Shown: piece by piece, positions 1,062-28,184 of the stretch | Layout: each line of letters begins with the position of its first letter | Numbering within the stretch: position 1 is the first letter of the stretch | NCBI GenBank assembly: GCA_013373325.1 | Contig: JABXIA010000212.1 | Span: forward strand, 1 to 33,267 | Origin: Paracoccaceae bacterium | Lineage (GTDB): Bacteria > Pseudomonadota > Alphaproteobacteria > Rhodobacterales > Rhodobacteraceae | DNA: 33,267 nt | Direction of reading: 5' to 3' | Position numbers and translations under genes: made by a program | Notes under the pieces: generated by a model | Seen by the model: the letters and a program-made list of their open reading frames with translations, nothing else | Told to the model about the DNA's origin: nothing | Databases searched by the model: none

Positions 1062-2015
1062 TCATTTGTGAATTCCTTTCCTAGCCAGGTACTGTCGTGC
1101 CAGCACACGGGCGGTTCCGATGAACCGCTGGTTGCGGCCTTTGGATCCGGGCTCATCCATTCGGGTGATGATCCAGCCCGCATATGTTGCCGACCTCAGC
1201 ACCAGGAACAGGTCAAGTGCAGTCAAGTCAATCACCCGAACTGACAGATAGCCGGCGATCAGCGCGGCGCGCAGCGCCGGGTAGTCGGCCTCCTGCATGT
1301 TTCTGAGCAGCGTGGTGGCCAAATCGAAAAGGCGGAAGCCAAAGCCGCTGTCGTCGAAATCGATCAGCTGCAGCTTGCCGCCGTCTGCCATGATGTTTTC
1401 GCGCACGAGATCCGCGTGGATAAGCCCGAAGTCCAGAGTAGATTCCAGCTGCTGCAGTTCGGCATCAGCTTCGCTGCGCAGGGCAAGAAACAGTGAACGG
1501 TCTTCTGTTGTGAGGCCGGGGTTATCCCAGAACCGGCCCCAGAGCGGGTTGGCACCAAGCAGACCTTTCCGGTCCCAGGACCAGCGACTGAAACCCTTCG
1601 GCGGAGTCCAGCGGTCGGAGACTGAGTGCAGCCGGGCCATTTCGCGGCCGATGCCAAAAAACAGGCCAGTGCGATTACCTGTGTTCAAACCACCGCCTGT
1701 CCGGCCGATCGGGGCACCGGATAGCCAGGTAAGCACATCCGCCTGCAATCCGCCGGCTTTATGCAGGAACTCTCCTGAGGGTGAGGTGACTGGGGCCGGG
1801 ACACGCAGGCCGCCCTCTGCTGCGGAGTTCATCCATTGCAGCTCCGACCACAGTTCTGCATCGGTCCGGTAGCCTGGGCGGTGCAGGCGCAGCGCATATG
1901 ACTTGCCGCTGTGGTCCAACCGGTAGACCTGGTTTTCACGGGTGGCTATCAGGCTGGCACCTGCGCCCTCCATTCCCCAGAGCGCCAGAGCTTCCTTTAC
2001 TGCCGTCGCGCTCAT
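1062..2015 (-). CDS. APH/choline-kinase-fold small-molecule phosphotransferase
   Basis: A 317-residue kinase of the aminoglycoside phosphotransferase/RdoA-like superfamily. The N-lobe is marked by ENQVYRL and YALRLHRPGY (residues 27-50). The catalytic loop HADLVREN has H200, D202 and N207, and the metal-binding LIDFDDSG lies at 218-224. Members phosphorylate hydroxyl groups of small molecules such as homoserine, choline, hydroxylysine or aminoglycosides. The start overlaps the stop of the preceding class III PLP gene by 4 bp (ATGA), implying translational coupling. It is the last gene of an eight-gene operon. Inference: it makes the phosphorylated substrate used by the neighbouring PLP enzyme, as hydroxylysine kinase does for PHYKPL. 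Antibiotic resistance is unlikely given the catabolic context. The transposase remnant ends about 60 bp beyond its stop. Confidence 0.88.
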   Translation of the reverse strand: MSATAVKEALALWGMEGAGASLIATRENQVYRLDHSGKSYALRLHRPGYRTDAELWSELQWMNSAAEGGLRVPAPVTSPSGEFLHKAGGLQADVLTWLSGAPIGRTGGGLNTGNRTGLFFGIGREMARLHSVSDRWTPPKGFSRWSWDRKGLLGANPLWGRFWDNPGLTTEDRSLFLALRSEADAELQQLESTLDFGLIHADLVRENIMADGGKLQLIDFDDSGFGFRLFDLATTLLRNMQEADYPALRAALIAGYLSVRVIDLTALDLFLVLRSATYAGWIITRMDEPGSKGRNQRFIGTARVLARQYLARKGIHK

Positions 2016-3307
2016 GGTTGCACCGGCGTTTCAGCCAGAACCTCGTCCAGCGTGTCGAACAACAGGTCCGCATTTTCCTTGGAGAACGGCATCGGCGGGC
2101 GAATTTTCAGGGTGTTTTTATGGCGGCCCAGCTTGGAGTGGATGATGCCGCGGTGGCGCATGGCGTTGATCACCCGGTCGGTGTAGGCAATCGCCGGTTC
2201 CTTGGAGGCGCGGTCCAGGACCATCTCGGCGCCAAACACCATGCCGGAGCCGCGAACATCGCCAATGAAGTCATACTTCTCCTGCAGCGTTTCCAGCCGT
2301 GCCCGGGCATGGACGCCGACGGCTTCCGCATGTGCGAGCAGCTTCTGGTCTTCGATCTCTTCCAGCACTGCTTTTGCCGCAGCACAGGACACCGGGTTGC
2401 CGCCGAAGGTGTTGAAATAGCGGTAGCCGGAGCGGAAGGTCTTGAGGATTTCTCTGCGGGTGACGACGCCACCAACCGGGTGGCCATTGGCCATTGGCTT
2501 GCCCAGTGTCATCACATCCGGCACCACGCCCATCTTCTGATGCGCCCACATATGGGTGCCGGTGCGGCCGAAGCCGGACTGTACCTCATCGCAGATCAAG
2601 AGACCGCCGGCCCGGCGCACCACCTCCGCCGTGGGCTTCAGCCAGCCTTCGGGGTGGTTCGGAAACCCTTCGTTAAGGAAGAAGGGGCAGATCACCAGCG
2701 CGGCAAAGCCGGTGCCGGCCTCTTCATGCGCGGCAATCTGCTCCGCTACGGCAGCGGCGAATCTGTTGCCGTCCGGGTCTGGATTGCGGTAGCTGTCAGG
2801 GGCTTCGGCAAAGCGGAAATACTGTTCCAGCCCGAAGCCGACGGTTGGAGGGTTGGAGCAGCTGAGCTGGCTGACCAGCGCGGTGTTGCCGTGATAGGTC
2901 GCGTCGGTGGCCACGATGCCACGCTTGCCGGTTATTGCTTCTGCCATGCGCAGGGCAATGTCGTTGGCCTCTGAACCGGTGCAGGTTAGAATGGCCGTGT
3001 CGAGCGAGGCATCCATGGTCGCAGTCAGCTTCTCCGCATAGTCCAGAATGCCGTCGTGCAAATAGCGCGTGTGGGTGTTGAGGGTCGCCGCCTGACGGCA
3101 GATCGCCTCCACCACTCGCGGGTTGCAATGGCCCACATGCGGCACGTTGTTGTAGCAGTCCAGATACTTGCGTCCGTCGGCGTCCCACAGCCAGACGCCT
3201 TGGCCCTTCACGATATGCAGCGGTTCGTCATAGAAGGTCGAGACATTCGGCCCCAAAAGCCGGGCGCGCCGTTTGATGAGATCCTGAGATCCGGCAGACA
3301 GAGTCAT
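2012..3307 (-). CDS. Class III PLP enzyme, AGXT2L1/PHYKPL (ammonia/phosphate lyase)-like
   Basis: A 431-residue fold-type I PLP enzyme. The cofactor lysine is K270 in MTLGKPMANG, preceded by LLICDEVQSGFGR with the PLP-binding aspartate D240. Several blocks resemble the human AGXT2L1 (ethanolamine-phosphate phospho-lyase) and PHYKPL (phosphohydroxylysine lyase) subgroup as I recall it more than ordinary transaminases: YLDCYNNVPHVGHCNP, LNTHTRYLHD, GKPMANGHPVGGVV and YFNTFGGNPVSCA. Those enzymes release phosphate and ammonia from phosphorylated amino alcohols to give aldehydes. Gene order supports this: a small-molecule kinase overlaps its 3' end and an aldehyde dehydrogenase lies 15 bp upstream. 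A plain omega-aminotransferase remains possible because the subgroup was judged by eye. Confidence 0.85.
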   Translation of the reverse strand: MTLSAGSQDLIKRRARLLGPNVSTFYDEPLHIVKGQGVWLWDADGRKYLDCYNNVPHVGHCNPRVVEAICRQAATLNTHTRYLHDGILDYAEKLTATMDASLDTAILTCTGSEANDIALRMAEAITGKRGIVATDATYHGNTALVSQLSCSNPPTVGFGLEQYFRFAEAPDSYRNPDPDGNRFAAAVAEQIAAHEEAGTGFAALVICPFFLNEGFPNHPEGWLKPTAEVVRRAGGLLICDEVQSGFGRTGTHMWAHQKMGVVPDVMTLGKPMANGHPVGGVVTRREILKTFRSGYRYFNTFGGNPVSCAAAKAVLEEIEDQKLLAHAEAVGVHARARLETLQEKYDFIGDVRGSGMVFGAEMVLDRASKEPAIAYTDRVINAMRHRGIIHSKLGRHKNTLKIRPPMPFSKENADLLFDTLDEVLAETPVQP

Positions 3308-3322
3308 GGCGTTTCCTCGGGT

Positions 3323-4810
3323 TTACAGCTGAATCCATGCAGATTTCAGGTCGGAGTATTTCTCCAGGGCGTGCAGGGACTTGTCATGGCCGTTGCCGGA
3401 CTGCTTGACGCCGCCGAGGGGCACGGTCAGGTCGGAACCGCCGTAAGTGTTCACATGCACGATGCCGGCACGGATACCTGCTACCATCCTGTGCGCCCGG
3501 CTGAGGTTTGCGGTCCAGACCCCGGCAGAGAGGCCGTAAGTGGTGGCATTGGCCAGGCGGATGGCTTCTTCTTCATTCTTGAAGGTGGTGACGGCCAGCA
3601 CAGGACCGAACACCTCATTCTGGAACAGATTGTCCTGCGGTTTTACGCCCGCCATGATGGTCGGCTGCATGTAGAAACCACCGGTTTCCTGCAGGATGCG
3701 CTTGCCGCCGCTGCGCAGTTCGGCGCCCTCGGCCTCGGCGCGGGCGGCGAACTCCAGGTTGGCCTCCAGCTCAGCCAGCGAATGCACCGCACCAATCTGG
3801 CTGGACAGATCCAGCGGATCGCCGACCCGGAAGGCCTCAGCATGGCGGGCCATTTCGGCGACGAACTCTTCGGCGATGTCCTCCTGCACCAGGAGCCGTG
3901 AGCCGGCCACGCACACCTGGCCTGAATTGCGGAAGATGCCCGCGGCGGAAATCTTGGCCGTCTCGGCTAGGTCGGGTGCATCACTAAAGATGATATTGGG
4001 GGATTTGCCGCCCAGCTCCAGATAGCAGCGCTTGAGGTTGGAGCGGGCCGAATATTCCAGCAGCCGCCGCCCGGTGGCGCCGGAGCCGGTGAAAACCATG
4101 ATGTCCACATCCATGCTGAGCGCCAGGGTCTCACCCACCACGCTTCCCTTGCCGGTGACCACGTTGAAGACGCCGGGCGGCAAACCGGCTTCAACCGCAA
4201 GTTCGGCGACCTTCAGCAAGCTGAGCGAGGCGCTTTCGGCAGGTTTCAGGACAACTGAATTGCCTGCCGCCAGTGCCGGGGCGATTTTCCAGGAGCCGAT
4301 CATCAGAGGGAAGTTCCAGGGCACGATGGCACCGACCACACCGACCGGCGCGTGATGCACCATGGCCAGCACACTCTCCGCCGTGGGTGCGATTTGTCCA
4401 TAGACCTTGTCGATCGCCTCGCCGTAGTAGCGGAATGTGGCGGCGGCAGAGAGCGCCTCGGCCTTGATCGCCATGGTGATTTCGGTGCCATTGTCGCGCA
4501 CCCCAAGAACCGCCAGTTCCAGAGCCCGCTCCTCGATCAGATCACCCAGCTTCATCAGCACTTTCTTGCGGGCGGCGGGGGCCATGCGGGACCAGTGCCC
4601 GGCCTCAAAAGAGGCCCTTGCAGAGGCGATGGCACGCTCCATGTCGGCAGGTGTTCCTTCTGCCAAGCTGCCAAATGGCTTGCCGTCGATCGGGGAAATC
4701 ACCTCCAGAGTGCCGCCGGTCAAGGAAGCCTGTTGCTCGCCATCGATGAAATGGCCCTGGACCGGCACCTCCAGCTGGCGGAGGGCGTTGATATCGTTCT
4801 GGTTTAGCAT
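3323..4810 (-). CDS. NAD(P)-dependent aldehyde dehydrogenase
   Basis: Aldehyde dehydrogenase superfamily, 495 residues, oxidising an aldehyde to a carboxylate with NAD(P). Visible motifs in order are GAIVPWNFPLM, the Rossmann region FTGSGATGRR, ELGGKSPNIIF with the general-base glutamate near residue 265, NSGQVCVAGSR with the catalytic cysteine near 300, and NEVFGPVLAV. The frame is open upstream to 4885, but the ATG at 4810 is preferred. It follows an AGGGGT ribosome binding site, lies 4 bp after the tctA stop and gives the usual family length. The closest general resemblance is to betaine-aldehyde/aminobutyraldehyde type enzymes, which does not fix the substrate. Inference: it oxidises the aldehyde released by the neighbouring PLP lyase-like enzyme. 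Confidence 0.92.
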   Translation of the reverse strand: MLNQNDINALRQLEVPVQGHFIDGEQQASLTGGTLEVISPIDGKPFGSLAEGTPADMERAIASARASFEAGHWSRMAPAARKKVLMKLGDLIEERALELAVLGVRDNGTEITMAIKAEALSAAATFRYYGEAIDKVYGQIAPTAESVLAMVHHAPVGVVGAIVPWNFPLMIGSWKIAPALAAGNSVVLKPAESASLSLLKVAELAVEAGLPPGVFNVVTGKGSVVGETLALSMDVDIMVFTGSGATGRRLLEYSARSNLKRCYLELGGKSPNIIFSDAPDLAETAKISAAGIFRNSGQVCVAGSRLLVQEDIAEEFVAEMARHAEAFRVGDPLDLSSQIGAVHSLAELEANLEFAARAEAEGAELRSGGKRILQETGGFYMQPTIMAGVKPQDNLFQNEVFGPVLAVTTFKNEEEAIRLANATTYGLSAGVWTANLSRAHRMVAGIRAGIVHVNTYGGSDLTVPLGGVKQSGNGHDKSLHALEKYSDLKSAWIQL

Positions 4811-4814: not shown

Positions 4815-6341
4815 TTACCCCTGCTGGCTGGAATGCTCGTAGTCCGGCCCGAGCGGCTCCGGATTTTGCTTGGCCTTCTGCTCAAGGATCAAGGTGCGGA
4901 TGTGAAGCACCACGATTCCGATGATCATCACAAAGATGATTGCGGCGATGGGGCGGCTGATGAAATCGATGGGGGTTTTCACCGCTGCCATCGCGGCCCG
5001 CAGCTTGACTTCCATGATGCCGCCCAGGACCATGCCGAGGATGATCGGCACAATCGGCAGGTTCAGCCGTTTGAGGATCAGTCCCAGCACGCCGAAGCCT
5101 GCGGCAATGGCGCAATCGGTGATCGAGTTGCGCAGCGAGTAGACGCCGATGAAGGACAGAGTCAGGATCATCATGCCGAGGAAGCGGGTCGGGATTTGGA
5201 TGATCTTCAGCAGCAGGTTGGTGGAGAAAAGCAGGAAGACCAGCACGATCACGTTGAGCAGGATCAGCGCCAGATAGAGCGCCATCACGAAGTCCAGCTG
5301 GGTTTCGAAGAGCTGCGGACCGGGGATCACGTTGTGAACATAGAATACCGACAGCATCATCGCGGTCAGCGCTTCGCCGGGGATGCCAAGCGCTAGGAGC
5401 GGTATCATTGCCGCACCTGGGACCGCGTTGTTTGCGGCTTCAGATGCGACAAGACCTTCGGGAGAGCCGTTGCCGAAGGCGTCCGGGTTTTTCGAGGTTT
5501 TCTGAGCGTAGGTATAGGAAAGGAACTGTGCTGTGAATTCACCGACGCCGGGGATCATGCCCATCAGCACACCGAGGGAGGAAGAGATGGTGGCGATGCG
5601 CTTGAACCCCAGCAGCTCCTTAACGCCTGCAAACATGTTGCCCTGCACGTTGGCGTCTTGGGGGGCGTGATCCTTTTCGACCAGCAGCAGGAAGGCCTGG
5701 CTGAGGGCAAACAGCCCCAGCACCACGACGATGAGGTCAAAGCCGGAGGACAGCCAGCTTTGATCGAAGGTGAAGCGTTTGGTGTATTTGACCGGTTCCA
5801 GCCCGACGGTGTTCAGGAAGATGCCGAAACAGGCCAGCATGCCAGCAGCAAATGTCTGGCCACGGTGCGCCACGACCACCAGCAGAATGCCCATGAAGGC
5901 GGCAAGGAAGATCTCGCGGCTGCCGAAATGCGGGGCGATCAGCGCCAGCAGCGGTGCCAGTAAGATCAAGCAGATGACTGAGAAGATGCCGCCGAAGAAA
6001 GACGCTGTGTACGCCAGAGAGAGCGCCCGGTGGCCCTCTTTACGCCTGGTCATTGGATAGCCGTCGTAGGTGGTCAGCGCATTGACCGGCGTTCCCGGGG
6101 TATTGATCAGGATGGCCGGGATCGCGCCGCCGTACATCGAGCTGCCGTAGATCCCCAAAAGCAGGGTCAGTCCGACGATGGGCTCGAAGGCAAAGGTCGC
6201 GGGCAGCAGGATGGCAATGGCAACCGCAGGCCCGACACCTGGCAGGGCTCCGATGATGACGCCGCCGATGGAGCCGATGACCAGTGCGGCAAAGACGTCC
6301 CACTGAGCGAGGATTTGGAATCCGGAGAGAAGAGTGTCCAT
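4815..6341 (-). CDS. TTT transporter large permease, TctA family
   Basis: A 508-residue, strongly hydrophobic inner-membrane protein of the tripartite tricarboxylate transporter family, with about twelve membrane segments. The N-terminal GALPGVGPAVAIAILLP and the internal repeat GAAMIPLLALGIPG are the hallmark glycine/proline motifs of TctA. It forms the secondary-active permease with TctB and receives ligand from the periplasmic TctC. The start is 7 bp after the tctB stop, and the aldehyde dehydrogenase starts 4 bp after its own stop. Family ligands are usually carboxylates (citrate, tartrate, aromatic acids), but substrate cannot be read from the permease. Its place inside the operon implies import of the compound catabolised by the flanking enzymes. 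Confidence 0.95.
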   Translation of the reverse strand: MDTLLSGFQILAQWDVFAALVIGSIGGVIIGALPGVGPAVAIAILLPATFAFEPIVGLTLLLGIYGSSMYGGAIPAILINTPGTPVNALTTYDGYPMTRRKEGHRALSLAYTASFFGGIFSVICLILLAPLLALIAPHFGSREIFLAAFMGILLVVVAHRGQTFAAGMLACFGIFLNTVGLEPVKYTKRFTFDQSWLSSGFDLIVVVLGLFALSQAFLLLVEKDHAPQDANVQGNMFAGVKELLGFKRIATISSSLGVLMGMIPGVGEFTAQFLSYTYAQKTSKNPDAFGNGSPEGLVASEAANNAVPGAAMIPLLALGIPGEALTAMMLSVFYVHNVIPGPQLFETQLDFVMALYLALILLNVIVLVFLLFSTNLLLKIIQIPTRFLGMMILTLSFIGVYSLRNSITDCAIAAGFGVLGLILKRLNLPIVPIILGMVLGGIMEVKLRAAMAAVKTPIDFISRPIAAIIFVMIIGIVVLHIRTLILEQKAKQNPEPLGPDYEHSSQQG

Positions 6342-6348: not shown

Positions 6349-6888
6349 TCAAAGGTAAGTCAGCGCAAAAGCGCGCAGCGCATCGGGCAAATGCTGGTAG
6401 ATTTCGCCTGCGGGAATTTTGACCTGTAGAAAACCCCGAAAGATCAGCGCTATGCAGGTGGCAAACAGTGCGGCAAGCGCAAGGTGTTGCGGGCGGCGGA
6501 AGCCTGCGCGCAAGATTATGAAAACGGCAAAGAGTATGGTTGACGGCAAGTAGCCGGCGAGAGGGACAATGGCGACATAAGCCAGGAAGTAGAGGACGTA
6601 TTCAAGCGATCGCAGCCAGAACAAGACTTCCTTCAGCCGACCGTAAATGCGCGGTGACACCATTGAGCCCAGCAGGTGAAAGGCCCCGAAGATCACCATT
6701 CCCCAGACCGCAATGCTGGGCCATAGCGACGGCTGGCCGAACCATTTGGTGCGTTTCACCCATTTGGTCTGCTCGCCCAGCTGACTCAGCAAAAACAGCG
6801 CGAATAGCAGGAAAATAATGGCAAAAACCAGATCGCCGGGCCGCCGGTAGCGCTGAAACAGTTCCTGAAAATACTTGATACGTGTCAT
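6349..6888 (-). CDS. TTT transporter small permease, TctB family
   Basis: A 179-residue membrane protein with four predicted hydrophobic segments: LVFAIIFLLFALFLL, the stretch around WPSIAVWGMVIFGAFHLL, YVLYFLAYVAIVPLAGYLPS and HLALAALFATCIALIFRGF. This is the usual layout of the poorly conserved TctB subunit. The frame extends to 6942, but the ATG at 6888 follows a GGAGGAGGAC ribosome binding site and gives a normal length. It lies between tctC (60 bp gap) and tctA (7 bp gap). The family call depends mostly on this context. Confidence 0.9.
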   Translation of the reverse strand: MTRIKYFQELFQRYRRPGDLVFAIIFLLFALFLLSQLGEQTKWVKRTKWFGQPSLWPSIAVWGMVIFGAFHLLGSMVSPRIYGRLKEVLFWLRSLEYVLYFLAYVAIVPLAGYLPSTILFAVFIILRAGFRRPQHLALAALFATCIALIFRGFLQVKIPAGEIYQHLPDALRAFALTYL

Positions 6889-6948: not shown

Positions 6949-7878
6949 TTATTCGCCGACCAGCGCGTTGATCTCGGCTAGATCGGTGATGTCTTTCTCG
7001 ATCTGCTGTGAAGAACTCTCTGCATCCTTCCAATAGAGCAGCACGCCGGTTTCCTTCATCAGGTTAATCGCCGCTTCGGTTTCCAGCGTGGCCTTGGCAG
7101 CGGCCGCGATCTTCTCGCGCGCATCTGCCGGTGTGTCCTTGTGCACAAACAGTCCGTTCCACAGCGACAGCTCCAGTCCCGGAACAACTTCGGCCATGGT
7201 CGGCACATCCGGGGTAAGCGCGGTGCGCTCGGATCCGATGCTGGCCAGGATCTTGATGCTGTCCATGCAGGGCAGCAGGGTCTGCAAGGTGCCATTCACA
7301 ACGTCGACGTCTCCCGAGGCCAGAACGTTGCAGTCAAGCAGGTCGTAGGCGGCTTCACTGGTGAAATCGAAGCCGGATTTGATAGCGGCGGCGAAAGTCA
7401 CCTTGGTCGGCGCCAGGAAAGAGCCATAGTGGCCCAGAGAGACGTCATTTTCCGCGCCATAGGCCGACAGCTCCTCCCAGGTGTCATAAGGTTTGTCCGC
7501 CAAGGTTGCGACCACAAACGGATAGGTCAGGAAAATGCCGACCGGATCAAACGGGTTGGGGGCCAGTTCCGGGATGCCGATTTCGGGCCCAACCACCGGC
7601 ACCCCGATCACGAAAGACCCAACGGTGTAGCCATCTGCCGGTGCGTTTGCCACTTCAACGGCACCGGGGAACGGGCCGCCGCCGCCGCCCGGCTTGTTCA
7701 CCACCGCTGCAGGAACCCCGTACATCTCCTGGAACTTGTCGGCGATCATCCGGGTCAGCACATCTTCCAGGTCACCCGGCGGCCAGGGCACCACGAAAGA
7801 GACCGGCTTTTCCGGATATTCCGCCATGGCGGCCGTGGCGCTGAGCACGGCAGCAATAGCTGCAAGTTTGAGTTTCAT
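6949..7878 (-). CDS. TTT transporter periplasmic binding protein, TctC family
   Basis: A 309-residue periplasmic solute receptor. The signal peptide MKLKLAAIAAVLSATAAMA is followed by YPEKPVSFVVPWPPGD, the classic start of mature TctC/Bug proteins, and then VVNKPGGGGG. It captures a ligand in the periplasm and hands it to TctAB. The frame is open to 7932, but the ATG at 7878 sits behind GGGAGGAAAC and begins exactly at the signal peptide. Two cysteines (DLLDCNV and LLPCMDS) may form a disulfide. The first-encoded transport subunit follows the UPF0261 gene by 31 bp. Confidence 0.94.
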   Translation of the reverse strand: MKLKLAAIAAVLSATAAMAEYPEKPVSFVVPWPPGDLEDVLTRMIADKFQEMYGVPAAVVNKPGGGGGPFPGAVEVANAPADGYTVGSFVIGVPVVGPEIGIPELAPNPFDPVGIFLTYPFVVATLADKPYDTWEELSAYGAENDVSLGHYGSFLAPTKVTFAAAIKSGFDFTSEAAYDLLDCNVLASGDVDVVNGTLQTLLPCMDSIKILASIGSERTALTPDVPTMAEVVPGLELSLWNGLFVHKDTPADAREKIAAAAKATLETEAAINLMKETGVLLYWKDAESSSQQIEKDITDLAEINALVGE

Positions 7879-7909: not shown

Positions 7910-9151
7910 TCACGCCTTGCCCGGCATGACAATTCCTTCCGCTACCCAGCGGTCCAGGATTTCAAGTGCCGTTCGGGTGAAGTCAGGGTCGTTGATATGC
8001 GCCTCCAGCTCCGTCGCCTGGACAGAGGGGGAAACGGTTGCACTCAGTTCAGTGGTGAAAGCCTCCAGCCCCTCCGGATCGTGGCAATCGCCGCCTGGGC
8101 GGTCCCACTCCTCAATCCCGCCCTTTGGAATGATCAGATGCGTGGGAGCCTTGCTCTCGCCAATCCGCCGGTTCAGCTCACGGGCGATGCCGCGGCGTTC
8201 CTCGGCGTTGTAGAAGGTGTTTTTGACCAGTTTGTTGTGGGTGTGAATCGGTCGTCCCTGGAACTGCGCCGGGATCTCCTGCCAGCCGGCAAAGTCGATC
8301 AGGTCCATACAGCCAGGCGCAACGATCTGCGGGATGCCTGCACGGCCTGCCGACAGATGGCGGTCGCGGCCAGCGTTAACCACCGAACCGGCCATCAGGT
8401 TGCCCAGCTCGCAGCCAGCGAAATCCATCACGCAGACAAAGCCGTTCTGCGCTGCGATCTGCTCAAAGGCCATGCCGCCCATGCCCATCGCATGGAACAC
8501 TGCCACCTCGTAGCCGCGCTGCTCCAGCTCCGGTTTTAGGGTCTTGATGTATTTGAGGCAGGAGGTGCCAAGGGAAGTGACGCCGATCACCGGCCTGCCG
8601 CTGACCGCAGGTTCAGCTGCCCGTGCTGCGCCCAGCACCGCGCCCGCCGCCTGGGCAAGAGAAGATCGGCAAATGCTGTTCAGCCCGTACAGGCCACCGG
8701 CCCAAAGTATCATCTGGATATCCGGCGACAGACGTTCCGCCGGGATCAATGCCGAGAAGGAAACTGTGGAGACAACATATTTCGGCAAACCGACCGGCAG
8801 CGCCTGGCAGACGTCCAGGGCCAGGTCGGTGCCCATGGTGCCGCCCAGAATGATAACCCCGTCGATGCCGCCGTCACGTTGCAGCGCCAGCGCCAGCTCA
8901 CATGCGCCAGCCGACATGATGTTCATCGCCACATGCTCGCTGCCGCTTTCAATCGCGGCCTGGATCGAACTGCCGCCAGCCTTAGCCACGGCATGCTTGG
9001 AGAAATCCGTGGGCTTGTCCGGGTCGCCCAGCACGCTTACGTCCAGTGTCAGCGCACCACCGCCCAAGGCTCGGATTTTTTGCGCCAGAAATTCCAGCTC
9101 GGCGTTCTTGGTGTCGTAGGTGCCAATGACCAGTATGACCTTGTCAGCCAT
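7910..9151 (-). CDS. UPF0261 / Tm-1-like ATP-binding domain protein
   Basis: A 413-residue protein of the UPF0261 family, recognised from the N-terminus VILVIGTYDTKNAELEFLAQKI and from GVTSLGTSC, the central cysteine segment and the C-terminal LIIPKGGIEEWDRPGG. The family name comes from the tomato Tm-1 resistance protein, whose N-terminal domain binds ATP. The biochemical function in bacteria is not established as far as I know. In many genomes, and in the plant fusion protein, this domain is paired with a TIM-barrel (phosphoenolpyruvate hydrolase-like) partner, and none is present here. The ATG follows GGAGGGAGGAC and lies 25 bp after the FAD dehydrogenase stop. Its position in a catabolic operon suggests an enzymatic role in this pathway. 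Confidence 0.92.
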   Translation of the reverse strand: MADKVILVIGTYDTKNAELEFLAQKIRALGGGALTLDVSVLGDPDKPTDFSKHAVAKAGGSSIQAAIESGSEHVAMNIMSAGACELALALQRDGGIDGVIILGGTMGTDLALDVCQALPVGLPKYVVSTVSFSALIPAERLSPDIQMILWAGGLYGLNSICRSSLAQAAGAVLGAARAAEPAVSGRPVIGVTSLGTSCLKYIKTLKPELEQRGYEVAVFHAMGMGGMAFEQIAAQNGFVCVMDFAGCELGNLMAGSVVNAGRDRHLSAGRAGIPQIVAPGCMDLIDFAGWQEIPAQFQGRPIHTHNKLVKNTFYNAEERRGIARELNRRIGESKAPTHLIIPKGGIEEWDRPGGDCHDPEGLEAFTTELSATVSPSVQATELEAHINDPDFTRTALEILDRWVAEGIVMPGKA

Positions 9152-9176: not shown

Positions 9177-11639
9177 TCAGCCCCGCATGATTTCGCCCTT
9201 GGGATCGTAGTATGGCGTCAGCTGTACTTTGAGGGGGTGCATTTTGCCTGCAATCTGCACCTCAAATCCACCTTCATCGATCCAGGTTTTGCTGACCCCG
9301 CCGTCTCGGTTCAGGCTGGCCAGACCGACCATTGCCTGCAGCCGGAAACCCCAATTGCCAGAAGTCACATGCCCCACTATCCCGCCATCCTTCCACACAG
9401 GCTCGTTGTGGATGAGATAGGGCCCGTCCTTGGCGCCGACACTTTCGGCAATGCAGGAGACGGTCCTGTTTTGCGTCGACGGGCCGTCATTTTTCTGCGC
9501 GGCCAGCCTGGCCTTGCCGAGGAAGCTGTCCTCCTTGTCAAGCGCCACTGCGAAACCGAGACCGGTTTCAAAGGGCGTGTCATCCTCACCGATGTCGTGG
9601 CCGAAATGGCGGAAGCCTTTCTCCAGGCGGCAAGCATTCATCGCAAACATGCCCATGTGGCGCAGGCCCAGGGGTTCCCCGGCGTCCATCAGCGCCTCGT
9701 AGACGCCGATGGTGAATTCGGTTGGCATCATCAGTTCATAGCCCAGCTCGCCCAGGAACGAGCGCCGGATGGCCCAGCCGCGGGCATAGCCCATGTCGAT
9801 CTCCTGCGCCGCGCCAAAGGGGAAGGCTTCGTTCGATAGGTTATCACCCGAGATTGCAGATAGGATCTTGCGCGACTTCGGTCCGTGGATGGAGATCAGG
9901 CCATAGGCGGAGGTGGCGTCGAAGATCTCGAACCGCCAATCCGGATCGGCGTGGTCGCGGATCCAGGCCTGATCCCGGATCTGGCTAGGGTGGCCGGAGA
10001 TCACCATGAAACACTCCGGAGCCGTGCGGGTGATGGTGACATCTGCCTCAATGCCTCCGCGGGAATTCAGGAACTGGGTGTAGACTGAGGTGCCGGTTGC
10101 CACGTCTATCTCTGCGCCGCAGATGCGGTTCAGGGCGCGCACTGCATCCGGTCCTTGAACCTGGATCTTGGCATACATCGACTGGTCGATCAGAACTGCC
10201 GCGTCCCGTGCTGCCAGGCATTCCGATTGGACATAAGGCGACCAGTCCTTCCACCGCAGGTTCGGCTCTTCGTTCCAGCCCCGTTGGTCCGGGTCGTAAT
10301 ACATCGGCACTTCCCAGCCGATCCGTTCAGCAAAGGTCGCACCAGCGGCCCTCAGGCGGTCATGCAATGGCACCCGCCGCACACCACGGGCGCTGCGGAT
10401 CTGGCGGCCTGCCCAGGAGACGCCGTAGTGAAAACCCACTGATTCCGCGCTGCGGTCACGGTTGTACCTGGTGTTGCGCTGGAATGGATGCGCCCGGCGT
10501 GCCAGCATCGGCCCCATCCCGCGCGACGGCTCGCCATCGGACATCCATTCCGCCATCGTCAACCCGACTCCGCCGGAGTTCAGAATGCCGTTGGAATTCA
10601 TGCCGGCAGCGACAAACAGGCCCTTGATCTCGCTGGTTGGGCCCAGGTAGGGGCGGCCATCAGGCGTGAAGCTTTCGGGGCCGTTGAAGAAGGTCTGAAT
10701 GCCCATGCCGCCCAAGGCAGGCATTCTTTCGAACATCTTCTCCAGGTTGGGCTCCACATGCATCATGTCAAAGGGCAGTTCGTCGAATTCGAATTCTTCG
10801 GGGATACCCTCAGCGCCATAGGGCTTACCAAGATTTTCGAAGGCGCCGATCAATAGCTTGCCGGTGTCTTCCTTCCAGTAAGTGCGTTCTTCAGCGATGT
10901 TCAGGATTGGCTGATCCTTCGGCAGCCCTTCCAACGGTTCCGTCACGATATAGAAATGCTCGGTCGCGTGCAGAGGAACGGTGACACCATGCGCCTTTGC
11001 AAACAGATGGCTCCACATGCCACCCGCCAGCAGCACCTTTTCAGTTGCAATTACACCTTTGTCAGTTTCCACTCCGGCAATTTTGCCACCGCGGATGATT
11101 AACTGCGTTACCTTGGTGTTTTCGCACAGCTGTGCACCTAGAGACTTTGCGCCCTTGATCATGGCAACAGTCACATCCAGCGGGTTCACTTGGCCGTTGG
11201 AGGGCACAAAGAAAGCGGACTTCACATCCGCGGTTTCGATCCAGGGCCACTTCTCCTGCAATTCCTCGCGGGACAGCAAAAGACTTTCGATCCCCATGCG
11301 GACGGCGTGGTCATGGCTGCGCAGCAGTTGTTCGTGCCGCACCTCGCCAATCGCCAGATTGATGGTTCCATTCGGCTTGTAGCCGGTGGCCTGACCGGTT
11401 TCCTCCTCCAGCTCGCGGAACAGGCGGGTAGTATATTTGCCCAGCTCGGTCTGGGCGGTGCTGTCGCGCAGCTGGCCGACGATACCGGCCGCGTGCCAGG
11501 TGGTGCCGCTGGCAACCTTACGCCGCTCGACCAGAACAGCAGGCACACCCCGCTTCGCCAGGTGGTACAGCGTCGAGACACCGATGATACCGCCGCCGAT
11601 GATCACCACAGGGGCTCTTCCCGGAAGTTTGTGATCCAT
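9177..11639 (-). CDS. FAD-dependent dehydrogenase with C-terminal GcvT domain (dimethylglycine/sarcosine dehydrogenase-like)
   Basis: An 820-residue two-part enzyme. Residues 10-40 hold the FAD Rossmann motif VVIIGGGIIGVSTLYHLA and the acidic end VLVER. SGTTWHAAG carries H49, the covalent FAD attachment histidine in the dimethylglycine/sarcosine dehydrogenase family. From about 430 the protein continues as a GcvT (aminomethyltransferase, folate-binding) region, with GLISIHGPKSRKIL and YELMMPTEF. Such enzymes oxidise N-methyl amines and pass the one-carbon unit to tetrahydrofolate. ATG 11639 is used because the codon before it is only a TTG and AAGGAA lies 7 nt upstream. It is the first gene of the operon, 153 bp after the IclR stop. 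The exact amine substrate cannot be read. Confidence 0.9.
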   Translation of the reverse strand: MDHKLPGRAPVVIIGGGIIGVSTLYHLAKRGVPAVLVERRKVASGTTWHAAGIVGQLRDSTAQTELGKYTTRLFRELEEETGQATGYKPNGTINLAIGEVRHEQLLRSHDHAVRMGIESLLLSREELQEKWPWIETADVKSAFFVPSNGQVNPLDVTVAMIKGAKSLGAQLCENTKVTQLIIRGGKIAGVETDKGVIATEKVLLAGGMWSHLFAKAHGVTVPLHATEHFYIVTEPLEGLPKDQPILNIAEERTYWKEDTGKLLIGAFENLGKPYGAEGIPEEFEFDELPFDMMHVEPNLEKMFERMPALGGMGIQTFFNGPESFTPDGRPYLGPTSEIKGLFVAAGMNSNGILNSGGVGLTMAEWMSDGEPSRGMGPMLARRAHPFQRNTRYNRDRSAESVGFHYGVSWAGRQIRSARGVRRVPLHDRLRAAGATFAERIGWEVPMYYDPDQRGWNEEPNLRWKDWSPYVQSECLAARDAAVLIDQSMYAKIQVQGPDAVRALNRICGAEIDVATGTSVYTQFLNSRGGIEADVTITRTAPECFMVISGHPSQIRDQAWIRDHADPDWRFEIFDATSAYGLISIHGPKSRKILSAISGDNLSNEAFPFGAAQEIDMGYARGWAIRRSFLGELGYELMMPTEFTIGVYEALMDAGEPLGLRHMGMFAMNACRLEKGFRHFGHDIGEDDTPFETGLGFAVALDKEDSFLGKARLAAQKNDGPSTQNRTVSCIAESVGAKDGPYLIHNEPVWKDGGIVGHVTSGNWGFRLQAMVGLASLNRDGGVSKTWIDEGGFEVQIAGKMHPLKVQLTPYYDPKGEIMRG

Positions 11640-11767
11640 CAAATCGTTCCTTCAGCCCGCTGGTGCAGGCGATCCGCAGGTTTCAGACTGGGAGCCGAGA
11701 GGCGCCAAGGAGAGCAGGTTTCAGCCGTCCAGATGCAGATCTTGTGGCAGAAAGATTCGATTCACAG

Positions 11768-11802
11768 AAATTTTTCGCACCAAAGGTGCGTTTATTGCAC
11801 TT
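11768..11802 (-). promoter_or_regulatory. Predicted IclR operator A, upstream of the catabolic operon
   Basis: The perfect inverted repeat CGCACC-AAA-GGTGCG (11776-11790) is followed after six bases by a third half site, GCAC, and flanked by AAATTTTT. Nearly the same arrangement occurs at 12660-12694, upstream of the IclR gene. The site overlaps the last codons of iclR and lies 129-163 bp upstream of the FAD dehydrogenase start. Assignment to this IclR protein is inferred from position and duplication. Confidence 0.7.
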
Positions 11803-12571
11803 CTCGTGAGGCTGGACTGTGCGGCGACGGTGCTCCGGTCAAAGCGGTCTCCAACTGCCGGATAGCCGCCCCCAGCAAAGCTGCCAGTTCCGCTTGTCGG
11901 GCGGCATCCAGGTTCAGGTCGGGAACCGCAATCGCTATGGTGCCTGCCGGATCCTTGCCATCGGTGAAAAACGGCATCGCCACGCTGGCGACCCCGATCT
12001 CAACGGTGTTGCGGGCGCACGAATAGCCGCGGATCCGAGTTTCACGGAGCACATCTCTCAGTTCTGCTTCATCTGTCACAGTGAAGCGCGTCAGTTTCTC
12101 ACGTTTCAGATTCAGCAACCGCTCCCGGGTGTCGTCAGAACAGAATGCCAGAAACGCCAGTCCGGAAGAGGAAGAGTGGTAAGGGTAGGTTTCTGCAGGC
12201 TGAAGATTTATCACATTGCCCCGTGCAGGCAGCGTGAACGACGCAGTCCCCAAGCCGACTGCGCCAGGAATGCCGACATGCACGGTTTCATTTGCCTGCG
12301 CGGACAGCCACTGTGTCACGACTTGGGTTGCCTTCACCATCGGTACTGTGGCCTCGCGCAAGCGCGCCAGCGACAGGAAAGCGTGGCCCAACCGGTATTT
12401 CCGGGTTTCCGGATTCTGCTCAATGAAACCGTGCTTGATGAGAGACAGAAGCAACCGGCGTGTCACGGCTTTGTCTTGATCCGTGGCACGGGCCAAGTCA
12501 TTCAAACCGATTTCAAGATTCTCCAGCGAAAACTGGCGCAGCAGAAACATCGCTTTGTCCACAGTTTTCAT
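11792..12571 (-). CDS. IclR-family transcriptional regulator
   Basis: A 259-residue regulator with the IclR layout. The N-terminal winged helix-turn-helix covers residues 1-65 (KAMFLLRQFS, IGLNDLARAT, KAVTRRLLLSLIKHGFIEQN, KYRLG). The effector-binding domain follows, with HSSSSGLAFLAF, RGYSCARNTVEIGVASVAMPFF and a conserved cysteine in that segment. Members bind a small-molecule effector and repress or activate adjacent catabolic genes. The ATG follows GGAGGT. It lies in the same orientation as, and directly upstream of, the eight-gene operon. Two matching candidate operators flank it, suggesting both autoregulation and control of the operon. Confidence 0.93.
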   Translation of the reverse strand: MKTVDKAMFLLRQFSLENLEIGLNDLARATDQDKAVTRRLLLSLIKHGFIEQNPETRKYRLGHAFLSLARLREATVPMVKATQVVTQWLSAQANETVHVGIPGAVGLGTASFTLPARGNVINLQPAETYPYHSSSSGLAFLAFCSDDTRERLLNLKREKLTRFTVTDEAELRDVLRETRIRGYSCARNTVEIGVASVAMPFFTDGKDPAGTIAIAVPDLNLDAARQAELAALLGAAIRQLETALTGAPSPHSPASREVQ

Positions 12572-12838: not shown

Positions 12839-13468
12839 ATGGTGACACTGAACTTGGATAGGCCGCCGGAAGAAACAATTGTGCTTCGGGCAATCCCTGA
12901 GGACAATGCAGCTGTGCCCAAAGATCAGTCGTTTTCGCAACTTACCCTTTGGCTCCTTGCCGTGCGCGATCAGCGTGACAGGGGGGCATTCGCGGAAATG
13001 TTTGATTATTTGGCGCCGCGGCTGAAGGGATTTGTCATCCGGTGCGGTGCGAGACCCGCGCTGGCGGAAGAAATAGTCCAAGACGTGATGCTTACCATTT
13101 GGCGCAAGTCGGCGCTGTTTGATCCGCACAGGGCGCAGGCCACGGCTTGGATTTATCAGATCGCCCGCAACCGTCATATCGACATTGTCCGCAAGGAAAG
13201 CCGGCCCGTGCCGGATGAACTGGTAGAAGACTCCTGCGCTGAGCCAGATGCGAGCCAGATCCTGGCTTTGGAGCAGGAAGCGGAGCAGTTGAAACATGCC
13301 ATTGCGCAGCTGCATCCCGATCAGAAAGAGATGATCGTAAAGGCCTACATGGGTGATCTGACGCATCAGGAAATCAGCAGTCAGACCGGTCTGCCTCTAG
13401 GAACTGTAAAATCGCGCATCCGCCTGGGACTCGGGCGGCTGCGCAAGGAACTAAAAGGATTGCGTTAA
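12839..13468 (+). CDS. rpoE: ECF sigma factor RpoE (singlet-oxygen/photo-oxidative stress type)
   Basis: A 209-residue ECF sigma factor. Region 2 covers FAEMFDYLAPRLKGFVIRCGA, LAEEIVQDVMLTIWRK and TAWIYQIARNRHIDIVRKES. Region 4 covers YMGDLTHQEISSQTGLPLGTVKSRIRLGLGRLRKEL. It directs RNA polymerase to stress promoters and is held inactive by the ChrR protein encoded immediately downstream (stop and start adjacent). The ATG at 12839 is only about 4 bp after the predicted -10 element. The in-frame GTG at 12881, behind GGAAGAAAC, may therefore be the true start and would remove 14 poorly conserved residues. The ChrR partner and TGATCC promoters make the ECF11 assignment strong. Confidence 0.92.
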   Translation: MVTLNLDRPPEETIVLRAIPEDNAAVPKDQSFSQLTLWLLAVRDQRDRGAFAEMFDYLAPRLKGFVIRCGARPALAEEIVQDVMLTIWRKSALFDPHRAQATAWIYQIARNRHIDIVRKESRPVPDELVEDSCAEPDASQILALEQEAEQLKHAIAQLHPDQKEMIVKAYMGDLTHQEISSQTGLPLGTVKSRIRLGLGRLRKELKGLR

Positions 13469-14104
13469 ATGCCTGCAATCACCCACCACATCCCCGATGA
13501 AATGATTGTTGCTTATGTATCGGGCAGCCTGCCGCACGCCTTTTCCATGGTTGTTGCGTCCCACTTGTCCTATTGCCGCGGCTGCCAGGCTTCGCTTGGC
13601 GCGCATCGGGCTGCCGGCGGAGCGCTGCTTGAGACAGGGGAGGGCGTGGCAGTTGATACAGGCCTGAAATCGAAGGTGCTGGCCGCGCTTGATGCGCCTG
13701 TTGTGCCAGAACCGGTCTACGAGGCAAAAGGGATCTACCCGGGCCCTGTCATACAGAGCCTGAAGGGAAGGCCGCCGCGCTGGAAGACTCTCGGAATGGG
13801 CGTGAAGCAGGACATTCTGTTTGAAGACAGCGAAGGGTCTGCCCGTTTGCTGTTCATCCCGGCCGGGCAGGCGGTGCCTGATCACAGCCACAATGGCCTG
13901 GAGCTTACACTGGTTCTTCAGGGGAGCTTCAGCGATGAGACCGGGCAATTTGGTGTCGGCGATGTCGAAATAGGTGACGAGAACCTGGAACATACTCCGG
14001 TTGCAGATGCCGGCGATCCGTGCATCTGCTTGGCAGCCACCGACGCGCCGCTTAGATTCAGGGCTTTCATGCCGCGTCTGCTGCAGCCGTTGTTCCGGAT
14101 TTGA
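13469..14104 (+). CDS. chrR: Zinc/cupin anti-sigma factor ChrR
   Basis: A 211-residue cytoplasmic anti-sigma factor. The N-terminal zinc site is H7 (or H6), H32, C36 and C39 (HLSYCRGC), matching H6/H31/C35/C38 of Rhodobacter ChrR. The C-terminal cupin has HSHNGLE with H139, H141 and E145, plus H175, with the same spacing as the second metal site of ChrR. Known role: the N-terminal domain binds RpoE, and the cupin is required for release in response to singlet oxygen. The gene starts immediately after the rpoE stop, so both are co-transcribed from the autoregulated promoter. All metal ligands are present. Confidence 0.93.
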   Translation: MPAITHHIPDEMIVAYVSGSLPHAFSMVVASHLSYCRGCQASLGAHRAAGGALLETGEGVAVDTGLKSKVLAALDAPVVPEPVYEAKGIYPGPVIQSLKGRPPRWKTLGMGVKQDILFEDSEGSARLLFIPAGQAVPDHSHNGLELTLVLQGSFSDETGQFGVGDVEIGDENLEHTPVADAGDPCICLAATDAPLRFRAFMPRLLQPLFRI

Positions 14105-14117
14105 GATGTAATTCAAG

Positions 14118-14140
14118 GAGGCGCACAGGGTGCCCGCCTC
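14118..14140. terminator. Hairpin between convergent chrR and SDR genes
   Basis: GAGGCG (14118-14123) pairs with CGCCTC (14135-14140), with an inner CAC/GTG pairing. It occupies the 36-bp gap between two convergent genes, so it may terminate both. The following T tract is poor, so the call is tentative. Confidence 0.4.
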
Positions 14141-14866
14141 TCATTTCCCGCGGTACACGATCAAGTCGGGAAGCAGACCAAGAGCCTTGATTGCGAAGGA
14201 GAAGGGGCGCGGGAAGTCCGTTCGGAAGCGGCGTGTCCGCATCGCTGCAACCACATGGCGGGCGGCATCATCCGGCTCAAGCAGCTGTGGCATCCGGAAG
14301 CTGTTTTTGTCCGTAAGCCGGGTTTTGATGAAGCCAGGATTGACCAGGCGGACGGTTACGCCGCTTCCTTTCAGGTCGTAGCGCATGGTTTCTGCCAAGC
14401 TTATCAAAGCCGCCTTGCTGGCGCCGTAGCCGATTGATGCCGGCAAGCCCCGGTAACCTGCCAGAGAGCCGACGAGGGTGATATCCCCGCGCCTTTGCCT
14501 GACAAAGCCGGGCACGACTTCACCTAAAACGCGCAGCGCGCCTGTGAAATTCACATCGCTCATCTGGAGCACGGCGCCGCTGTCCCAATCCTGTGTCCGC
14601 ATCGGTTCGTAGGCGCCTGCGTTGTAAATCACACCATCCAGCGGTCCAGCGGCACGCGCGGCCTCTGCAACCGCGTATGTATCTGTCACATCCAAAGGCA
14701 GTGCTGTCGCATGGCGCAGTTCTTGGGTCAGCTCCTGCAGTGCATCTTCTGAGCGTGCCGACAAGATCAGCCTGGCCTCCTCTCGGTCCAGCTGGCGTGC
14801 GACCTCACGGCCCAGCCCGTGGCTCGCCCCGACCAGCCAAAAGGTTTTGCCTGCAAATCGCGTCAT
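14141..14866 (-). CDS. Short-chain dehydrogenase/reductase (SDR)
   Basis: A 241-residue classical SDR. The cofactor site is WLVGASHGLGREVA near residues 10-25, the NAG motif lies in GVIYNAGAYEP, the catalytic serine is in LVGSLAGYRG and the YxxxK is YGASK. It reduces or oxidises a carbonyl/alcohol with NAD(P)H; the substrate is unknown. The start overlaps the DUF1365 stop by 4 bp, so the two are translationally coupled. Both lie behind a predicted RpoE promoter. An SDR accompanies the lipid genes of the Rhodobacter RpoE regulon, which suggests a role in fatty-acid modification (inference). Confidence 0.9.
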   Translation of the reverse strand: MTRFAGKTFWLVGASHGLGREVARQLDREEARLILSARSEDALQELTQELRHATALPLDVTDTYAVAEAARAAGPLDGVIYNAGAYEPMRTQDWDSGAVLQMSDVNFTGALRVLGEVVPGFVRQRRGDITLVGSLAGYRGLPASIGYGASKAALISLAETMRYDLKGSGVTVRLVNPGFIKTRLTDKNSFRMPQLLEPDDAARHVVAAMRTRRFRTDFPRPFSFAIKALGLLPDLIVYRGK

Positions 14867-15633
14867 GCCTTCTTCCCCGAAAACGTTGCGCTGTCGGAAA
14901 TCAGGGGTTCCGGCGGTTTTGGCTTCTTCAGGAACGGTGCGCGTTTGATCCAGAGCTTGAGTGCCTGCCAGTAAATCAGTGCGACCACACGCGCTGCCCC
15001 GAGCGGCCTGCGCAGGGCAGCACGCAGCAGCCCGCCAGAAGTGACGGGGCGACGCAGTCCGTTCAGCGTCGCCAGCACCCCTTCTTGGCCATTGGTATAA
15101 GAAATCCGGATGTTGAAGGCTTCATTCGTCATCCCGAAGTTGAAGCTGTAGCGGCCTGCCACCTGCTGGAACGGAGAGACATGCATCAGCTTGTCCGCCT
15201 CTATCACATCGCTGCGCGTGATCGGGCGGAAATCCGGGTGCGCCGCGAAATAGCAGTGCCGGTGGCCGAAGGTGTTGTTTACCTCGGCAATGAAGGCGCG
15301 GGGGCTGCCGTCCTTCTCAGCGATCCAGAAACTGACCGGGTTGAAATGGAACCACAGGAAACTGGGCTGGGTCAGCAGCAGCAGCCGCGCACCCTTTAAG
15401 GGAAAGCCGCGCCGCTCCAGCTCCTCGCGGAACCAGGCAACGCCGTAGCCGCTGCCGCGCGGGCCGCCGTGGCGGCGGTCGTGGATCGAAAACAGATTGA
15501 ACCGATTGCGCGACAGGAGCGGCGGTGCACCATGCGTCAGATCTGTCAGAATGTAGTCGACGCCGTATCGGAAGGCGTTTTTCAAACGACCACTGCGGGC
15601 GTGAAAGGTCTGGGCTGCCACATGTTCAATCAT
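14863..15633 (-). CDS. DUF1365 family protein (RpoE regulon, lipid modification)
   Basis: A 256-residue protein of the DUF1365 family, recognised from FHARSGRLKNAFRYGVDYIL, LSRNRFNLFSIHDRRHGG, LLTQPSFLWFHFNPVSFW and FGHRHCYF. The family is regularly encoded beside amine-oxidase-like and cyclopropane-synthase-like genes and is implicated in cyclopropane or furan fatty-acid formation; its biochemistry is not settled. The frame is open to 15846. Starts at 15642 and 15633 are candidates; 15633 gives MIEHVAAQTF, the N-terminus I expect for the family. It also lies where transcription from the predicted RpoE promoter should begin, so the mRNA could be nearly leaderless. A GGAGGG at 13 nt before ATG 15642 favours the other start if the promoter call is wrong. 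Confidence 0.88.
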   Translation of the reverse strand: MIEHVAAQTFHARSGRLKNAFRYGVDYILTDLTHGAPPLLSRNRFNLFSIHDRRHGGPRGSGYGVAWFREELERRGFPLKGARLLLLTQPSFLWFHFNPVSFWIAEKDGSPRAFIAEVNNTFGHRHCYFAAHPDFRPITRSDVIEADKLMHVSPFQQVAGRYSFNFGMTNEAFNIRISYTNGQEGVLATLNGLRRPVTSGGLLRAALRRPLGAARVVALIYWQALKLWIKRAPFLKKPKPPEPLISDSATFSGKKA

Positions 15634-15637
15634 GAAT

Positions 15638-15667
15638 GGCATACGCCTGCTTTGCCCTCCTGGATCA
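15638..15667 (-). promoter_or_regulatory. Candidate RpoE promoter for DUF1365-SDR operon
   Basis: On the minus strand TGATCC (15667-15662), 18 bp, TATGCC (15643-15638). Spacing is identical to the rpoE promoter. The expected transcription start near 15631-15633 coincides with the second ATG of the DUF1365 gene. Confidence 0.55.
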
Positions 15668-15696
15668 CCTTCTTTGCAGTTTTTTCGCGAATGGGG

Positions 15697-15726
15697 TGAT
15701 CCGGTTTCTTGCTTGCGGCGTATCCG
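15697..15726 (+). promoter_or_regulatory. RpoE promoter for the amine oxidase-cfa-photolyase operon
   Basis: TGATCC (15697-15702), 18 bp, TATCCG (15721-15726), giving a start near 15733 and a short leader before ATG 15756. It lies back to back with the minus-strand candidate promoter, with 29 bp between the two TGATCC boxes. Confidence 0.7.
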
Positions 15727-15755
15727 ATCCAAACAACAGCAAGGAAAACAGTCAG

Positions 15756-18685: not shown

Positions 18686-18687
18686 GG

Positions 18688-20459: not shown

Positions 20460-20477
20460 ACTGACTGGTTACCTGTG

Positions 20478-23044: not shown

Positions 23045-23048
23045 GGGG

Positions 23049-26475: not shown

Positions 26476-26505
26476 CTCAGCTCCTGATTTTTGTGCTGGC
26501 GGAGA

Positions 26506-26525: not shown

Positions 26526-26573
26526 ACGCGAGTCGCGGCTTACTGCAATCAGAAAATTCGGGAAGACGGAAAG

Positions 26574-27371: not shown

Positions 27372-27410
27372 TCCACTACCACCAAAATAATAACCAACTG
27401 GGAGACTAAG

Positions 27411-28175: not shown

Positions 28176-28184
28176 GGTGCTGCC

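Follow-up and report, generated by a model that had tools for sequence, protein, structure and literature searches.

A kinase, a PLP enzyme and an aldehyde dehydrogenase at the end of a gene run

The window, by which we mean the whole stretch of DNA that was analysed (33,267 bases), is the entire contig C121 of a draft genome of a Paracoccaceae bacterium. We are concerned here with three of its genes, all intact open reading frames (ORFs) on the minus strand, which a sequence-only reading of this DNA had described as a three-gene cassette: an APH-fold kinase (1062–2015, 317 aa; Pfam APH, E 1.1e-29), a class III pyridoxal phosphate (PLP) enzyme (2012–3307, 431 aa; Aminotran_3, E 6.4e-79) and an aldehyde dehydrogenase (ALDH; 3323–4810, 495 aa from the ATG at 4810; Aldedh, E 8.6e-159). 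We predict that they are, respectively, an amino-alcohol (arylethanolamine) O-kinase, an O-phospho-arylethanolamine phospho-lyase releasing phosphate and ammonia, and a PuuC/KauB-like enzyme oxidising arylacetaldehydes. The 4-bp overlap noticed earlier between the kinase and PLP genes is the shared sequence ATGA, and the four sequence blocks quoted from the PLP protein lie at residues 48, 76, 269 and 297; 15 bp separate the ALDH gene from the PLP gene. The proposed operon would be longer than had been said, the three genes being the last of a same-strand run that starts with an IclR regulator (11792–12571) and continues through a DAO-GCV_T fusion, a UPF0261 gene and TctABC.

The PLP enzyme groups with the phospho-lyases

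By sequence (phmmer), the best solved relatives of the PLP enzyme are 5g4i (E 1.7e-113), which, like 5g4j, is A1RDF1 of Paenarthrobacter aurescens TC1, and 6tor, human ETNPPL (E 2.8e-99), the next being dialkylglycine decarboxylase at E 4.4e-54. Foldseek with an AlphaFold2 model of the enzyme found 5g4i (4.5e-44) and 6tor (1.9e-38), then 1z3z (1.9e-32). This model, with a mean predicted local distance difference test (pLDDT) score of 83.6, was built without the first Met, so that its numbering is one lower, and it is weak at model residues 53–55 and 270–273, adjoining the active site. The top NCBIfam models, PRK06148 and PRK06149 (972 to 1015 positions), are matched by their final part, below cut-off.

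A tree of 143 rows separates 137 lyases, including the window enzyme, A1RDF1 and human ETNPPL (PHYKPL was left out), from six class III aminotransferases with an SH-aLRT support of 99. Two loci, L105 and L127, had been dropped as the same places as L025 and L020, and the identical pairs L026/L108 and L102/L132 were kept. Within the lyases a clade of 111 rows (SH-aLRT 97) contains the window enzyme, A1RDF1 and the copies linked to phenylacetate (paa) and tyramine oxidase genes. Human ETNPPL joins the fused PRK06148-type paralogue on long branches, a join that we regard as unsafe and possibly a long-branch effect.

The residues follow the same division. The fold type I class III core is present as K270, D240 and H139, which we take to be the PLP lysine, the Asp and the stacking His. 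N53 and Q243 occur in 137/137 lyase rows and in none of the six aminotransferases, and N54 in all of the lyases and one of the six; position 403 is R in 136 lyases and K in one, ETNPPL, and neither in the aminotransferases. N141 and E213 are invariant in the clade (111/111 each), with N141 in three and E213 in none of the 26 lyases outside it. ETNPPL shares the fold and the core active-site residues (N53, N54, Q243 and the PLP lysine) and differs at positions 141 and 213, where it has H and G. Sequence, fold, residues and tree agree with the earlier likening of the enzyme to phospho-lyases rather than ordinary transaminases, and we assign it, as far as sequence and model allow, to the phospho-lyases of 5G4I/A1RDF1 and 6TOR. 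The genome also carries a paralogue (G000:C187:37347-38603, 38% identity) in a 1031-aa frame, by its length a PRK06148-like fusion; a paralogue match in a frame of ~1000 aa was found in 21/21 genomes of the same genus.

The kinase and the aldehyde dehydrogenase

The kinase carries the HxDxxxxN and DxD motifs of the APH fold as HADLVRENIM at 200 and IDFDD at 218, and its AlphaFold2 model has a pLDDT of 95.2. By both sequence (4e-29) and fold (Foldseek, 2.0e-17) its best solved match is 6EF6, titled a microcompartment-associated aminopropanol kinase, to which it is 26% identical in the fold alignment. Assignment as a homoserine kinase was rejected, the NCBIfam scores being 53.7 against a cut-off of 271 bits and 37.8 against 255.9 bits. 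The kinase stretch of one locus (L100), the translation of which contains a stop, was left out of the kinase alignment (A3). The ALDH appears from its sequence to be of the broad PuuC/KauB-like type: it scores 542.6 bits against PRK09847 (PuuC), under the cut-off of 850, and its best solved entries are 5iuu and 6b4r, KauB.

Some relatives of the pair have homoprotocatechuate or other arylacetate genes as neighbours

Among 98 loci whose PLP relative is at least 60% identical, 94 keep the PLP gene followed by the kinase gene on the same strand, the exceptions being three without a kinase match and one with the kinase 5 kb off; the adjacency is therefore not due to chance. In 81 of these loci the PLP stop lies within ATGA, GTGA or TTGA, which allows the same overlap, a count that covers the PLP stops alone and includes a few duplicate loci.

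A scan of genome_contigs listed the best 80 loci, more being present, and partners around these were scored by tblastn with reference proteins at set identity thresholds (at least 55% for the ALDH and at least 60% for a DAO-GCV_T orthologue). The kinase was found in 77, IclR in 59, UPF0261 in 58, the ALDH in 57, a second class III aminotransferase in 54, a HAD hydrolase in 37, TctA in 33, an APC permease in 20, an aromatic amino acid decarboxylase in 13 and DAO-GCV_T in 8. Two or more genes of the homoprotocatechuate meta-cleavage (hpa) pathway lie in the flanks of 29 of the 80 loci; of the 55 loci whose 10-kb flanks are complete, 24 have them. On the tree, 38 of the 111 clade rows and none of the other 26 lyase rows carry an hpa label; the human row offers no flanking sequence for such a label, the fused row and L113 offer short stretches, and the labels of L154, L155, L157 and L159 were taken from annotation. 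The hpa company extends across distant branches of the clade, including rhizobia and roseobacters, and also Granulosicoccaceae and Chromatiales.

Three of the recurrent partners deserve a remark of their own. UPF0261/Tm-1-like proteins are among the most constant companions of the lyase and kinase, which offers a lead to the function of that family. The second class III aminotransferase (L018:7163-8515; PRK07481, above cut-off) could serve dopamine or tyramine. The HAD hydrolase is of the HAD-IA type (L024:9956-10606).

We also viewed 25 plasmid stretches, hand-chosen from the match lists rather than random. Fourteen belong to the clade and eight of these carry hpa catabolic genes (Ruegeria THAF33, Pseudosulfitobacter, Phaeobacter porticola, Shinella, Agrobacterium, P. 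aurescens pTC2, Sphingobium and Ruegeria AD91A); in Sphingobium, hpcB, hpcD and hpaR lie ~5.7 to 8.4 kb from the lyase gene. The other six comprise one with phenylacetate genes, one with tyramine oxidase, one with hpaR only and three, from L. methylohalidivorans, R. pomeroyi and Paracoccus, with none of these in the stretch viewed; in R. pomeroyi DSS-3 the relatives of the pair are SPO_RS21625 and SPO_RS21630. In Mesorhizobium AR07 the permease, lyase and kinase genes directly precede paaX and phenylacetate genes (paaABCDE/paaZ), and in Phyllobacterium zundukense the same three adjoin tyramine oxidase and ALDH genes. Outside the clade 11 stretches were viewed, and none of the 10 that are annotated shows hpa genes; in one of the 11, from Azospirillum, gentisate-pathway genes lie 5 to 9 kb away.

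A compact run of this kind was found in a genome of the same class (L128). Here hpaE, hpaD, hpaG, hpaH, hpaI and the lyase gene share a strand and are spaced 5 to 23 bases apart; next come the kinase gene, which overlaps by 4 bases, a MarR gene and HpaB (TIGR02309, 539.3 bits, cut-off 480.2). A 162-aa ORF in this run, considered as HpaC, proved by Pfam to be the MarR regulator. The gene for A1RDF1 itself (AAur_pTC20101, plasmid pTC2) is surrounded by hpaE, an hpa-type putative hydratase, a putative HpaI, succinate-semialdehyde dehydrogenase, phenylacetaldehyde dehydrogenase (feaB), an amino acid permease, an ALDH and an APH kinase annotated as homoserine kinase. An extract of another Arthrobacter genome paper remarks that A. 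aurescens TC1 is seemingly specialised for a wide variety of amines (PMC3534580).

Two other kinds of neighbourhood were seen. On enterobacterial plasmids of Pantoea, Rahnella, Klebsiella and E. coli (L119, L120, L121 and L155) the kinase-lyase pair is of a second kind, with the kinase first and no hpa genes in the stretch shown, and probably acts on another amino alcohol. In Chelatococcus CO-6 (L157:8895-20857) the pair adjoins genes for ectoine/hydroxyectoine catabolism.

Genomes with a close lyase tend to encode HpaE

HpaE (TIGR02299 above cut-off) was used as the marker of the hpa pathway in three samples of genomes; because the samples share members and kindred genomes do not count as independent, the p values should be read as indications only. 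In the family sample (246 genomes of 245 genera), HpaE is found in 27 of the 32 genomes with a lyase of at least 60% identity (26/31 without the window's own genome; Fisher 1.1e-8 for these genomes against all others) and in 49/167 with no lyase at E 1e-130. Thirteen copies of the lyase are found no more than 20 kb from HpaE; counted over genomes with HpaE, linked copies occur in 11/29 at 60% identity or above and in 2/15 at 53–59%. In the class sample of 387, HpaE is present in 6/6 genomes at 60% or above (own genome excluded) against 11/380 (Fisher 2.8e-9), and in the phylum sample in 7/8 at 60% or above (own excluded), 2/4 at 55–59% and 8/36 below 54%, with 5/31 in controls without a lyase at E 1e-100. 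For genomes with low-identity lyases only (53% or less) the class sample gives 0/42; the phylum rate of 8/36, similar to its controls, is the safer figure.

The remainder of the gene run and of the window

Upstream of the trio, and only 4 bp from the ALDH start, ends TctA, the large permease of a tripartite tricarboxylate transporter (4815–6341; Pfam TctA, 1.5e-130). It is preceded on the same strand by TctB (6349–6888, ATG start chosen at 6888; Pfam TctB, 1.1e-10), the solute-binding TctC (6949–7878, ATG start chosen at 7878; Pfam TctC, 1.3e-19), the UPF0261/Tm-1-like protein (7910–9151, with N and C domains) and the dimethylglycine-dehydrogenase-like DAO-GCV_T fusion (9177–11642; DAO 4.6e-69, GCV_T 1.4e-68), the IclR-family regulator (HTH_IclR and IclR_C domains) standing at the head. 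The best solved relatives of the fusion are dimethylglycine dehydrogenase and oxidase (5l46, dimethylglycine dehydrogenase, 1.1e-114), and on this resemblance N-demethylase is a fair guess at its function. The whole block from IclR to kinase is also present in loci L105–L109. Among the genome_contigs matches listed, the nearest PLP relative is 98% identical and lies on a contig of Leisingera sp. SS27. A lyase of at least 74% identity occurs in 7/21 genomes of the same genus, own genome counted; the block is an accessory trait within the genus. Scans gave 3 promoters, where shuffled sequence leads one to expect 3.5, and 15 terminators, where it leads one to expect 11.3.

Just past the kinase end of the cassette, an open frame at 1–402 without a Pfam match is ~47% identical to the tyrosine recombinase of a Phaeobacter plasmid and may mark the edge of a mobile element. 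On the other side of the run, 12839–22034 encodes an ECF-type sigma factor and a ChrR-like cupin followed by an SDR, a DUF1365 protein, an FAD amine-oxidase-like ORF, cyclopropane synthase, MFS, DUF3833 and a photolyase-related protein; from its sequence this looks like an RpoE-ChrR regulon, which we take to respond to singlet oxygen. The region 22262–29689, with a dimethylargininase-like domain (below cut-off, residues 163–415 of a 415-aa ORF), a TPP enzyme, a class I/II aminotransferase, TetR and an amino-acid-type ABC transporter, is a possible cluster for the catabolism of arginine derivatives.

Discussion

A proposed route for arylethanolamines

The reactions and substrates that follow are those we infer from the gene identities, order, clade and linkage described above. 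From R-CH(O-phosphate)-CH2-NH2, phospho-lyases of the ETNPPL/A1RDF1 type release phosphate and ammonia and leave the aldehyde R-CH2-CHO. With an aryl group as R this aldehyde is an arylacetaldehyde, which an ALDH would turn into an arylacetate for the hpa or paa genes to carry onward. The substrates of the cassette would then be 2-amino-1-arylethanols such as phenylethanolamine, octopamine and noradrenaline. The kinase would transfer phosphate from ATP to the β-hydroxyl of aryl-CH(OH)-CH2-NH2; the PLP lyase would form an aldimine with the primary amine, abstract the adjacent proton and expel the phosphate, and hydrolysis of the enamine would give arylacetaldehyde and ammonia with no need of an amino acceptor. 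The ALDH would oxidise the aldehyde to 4-hydroxyphenylacetate or 3,4-dihydroxyphenylacetate, and the homoprotocatechuate pathway, encoded elsewhere in the genome, would degrade it. Since the PLP mechanism requires a primary amine, N-methylated compounds (synephrine, adrenaline) are predicted to enter only after demethylation by the DAO-GCV_T protein.

That the pair performs phospho-lyase type chemistry on some amino alcohol seems to us very probable. An aryl substrate class is likely, in that it jointly explains the hpa, paa, tyramine oxidase, HpaB and decarboxylase neighbours, none of which is explained by ethanolamine or aminopropanol, and the aminopropanol of 6EF6, by its entry title another CH(OH)-CH2-NH2 substrate, counts for an arylethanolamine kinase. 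For catecholamines specifically we would put the chances at about even, and equally balanced is the larger claim, that this is a previously unassigned route of phosphorylation and elimination which opens arylethanolamines and catecholamines (noradrenaline, adrenaline, octopamine, synephrine) to breakdown. Among the matches listed, extracts of the open-licence literature on arylethanolamine degradation and bacterial phospho-lyases hold no assignment of the kinase-lyase pair, which is weak evidence of absence.

Several observations weigh against this proposal. The scan of the window ORFs recognised none as an hpa gene, and the HpaE of the genome lies on a separate contig, C223; HpaE is over cut-off in 19/21 genomes of the genus, so that hpa is common there and its co-occurrence says little. 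In the family sample HpaE is at background (15/47) in genomes with lyases of 53–59% identity, which may act on something else. In 51 of the 80 listed loci there is no hpa gene pair in the flanks, some of these perhaps because of contig ends, and PaaA and tyramine oxidase each occur in only 1 of the 143 loci searched. HpaB was not found in 6/6 Leisingera genomes tested (E up to 1e-20), nor in a further genome, G307; these genomes would then require a different hydroxylase for a 4-hydroxyphenyl substrate and, unless one serves, catechol-type substrates are favoured. TctABC systems are known for carboxylates rather than amines, and together with the second aminotransferase, the HAD hydrolase and UPF0261 they have no firm place in the scheme. 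Finally, A1RDF1 has reportedly been found active on phosphoethanolamine, which fits an aliphatic substrate.

Alternative readings

This last point belongs to an aliphatic route, in which the same three steps would act on ethanolamine or 1-aminopropan-2-ol and yield acetate or propionate by way of acetaldehyde or propionaldehyde. It agrees also with the title of 6TOR, an O-phosphoethanolamine phospho-lyase among the closest solved lyases, with the aminopropanol kinase as the closest solved kinase and with the breadth of the PuuC/KauB type of ALDH. It leaves unexplained the recurrent hpa linkage, the gene run of L128 and the paa and tyramine oxidase contexts, and it suits better the lyases outside the clade, which carry no hpa label (0/26) and are often found kinase-first with a GntR gene near; for the clade we consider it unlikely.

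Imported arylserines (for example dihydroxyphenylserine) or N-acyl arylethanolamines might instead be converted to the arylethanolamine before the trio acts, the former for instance by the aromatic amino acid decarboxylase of hpa clusters. A DOPA-decarboxylase-like gene (best solved match 7xin, 1.7e-112) is the one counted in the flanks of 13 of the 80 listed loci and is present in the hpa cluster of genome G013, an amidase gene lies ~6 kb from the Phyllobacterium pair, and TctABC would suit an acid. The decarboxylase might equally serve DOPA or tyrosine, however, and the Pfam scan recognised neither a decarboxylase nor an amidase in the window's own run; we hold such a preliminary step to be improbable.

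Relatives of the PLP enzyme are annotated in database records as aminotransferases, several of them as members of the aspartate aminotransferase family, and some of the kinases as homoserine kinases, as would suit an ordinary transaminase with an unrelated kinase gene adjoining; we reject this as highly improbable on the sequence ranking, fold, tree and lyase residues of the enzyme and the kinase adjacency kept in 94/98 loci. A hydroxylysine-type route to aminoadipate semialdehyde, as by hydroxylysine kinase and PHYKPL in animals, has matching enzyme superfamilies and a kinase gene annotated hydroxylysine kinase beside one Arthrobacter lyase outside the clade, but the recurrent neighbours identified include aromatic-acid genes and no supporting neighbour was seen in the clade, though no search was aimed at lysine-catabolism genes; we give it hardly any weight.

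Relation to known systems

The comparison with animals made by the sequence-only reading calls for adjustment as regards the substrate: what lies beside the relatives suggests arylethanolamines rather than ethanolamine or hydroxylysine. The nearest known enzyme is A1RDF1, the best match by sequence and fold, which shares the clade, N141 and E213, nearby kinase and ALDH genes and the hpa context; it differs in being only 45% identical and in having its kinase gene on the opposite strand, with TetR adjoining, and the reported phosphoethanolamine differs from the substrate proposed here. The kinase resembles 6EF6 in sequence and fold and would resemble it in the type of substrate, going by the title of that entry; no shell family of bacterial microcompartments (the aminopropanol microcompartment, RMM) was found among the window ORFs scanned, a scan that covered all but some small or overlapping ORFs.

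A bacterial pathway of amino-alcohol kinase and amino-alcohol O-phosphate phospho-lyase was described biochemically in Erwinia and Pseudomonas in the 1970s; it has the same three-step logic and differs in its aliphatic substrates, and to our knowledge no genes have been assigned to it. Synephrine dehydratase of Arthrobacter synephrinum (EC 4.2.1.88), for which we likewise know of no gene, effects the same net change from a β-hydroxy phenolic amine to an arylacetaldehyde with one enzyme, acting on a secondary amine. PbfA, the 1-hydroxy-2-aminoethylphosphonate ammonia-lyase, is according to an extract of its description a class III PLP lyase that was identified from its gene neighbourhood, and differs in that its substrate is an unphosphorylated β-hydroxy amine (PMC8154272). 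The window enzyme scores 213.6 bits with the PbfA model, against a cut-off of 525.

What is new here is a likely substrate class for the trio, with the kinase-lyase pair as a concrete candidate. If the proposal is true, A1RDF1, a bacterial phospholyase of solved structure, would have an arylethanolamine phosphate as its natural substrate, and many labels of aspartate aminotransferase and homoserine kinase would be corrected. The microbial breakdown of the stress amines of invertebrates and vertebrates would then become readable from genomes.

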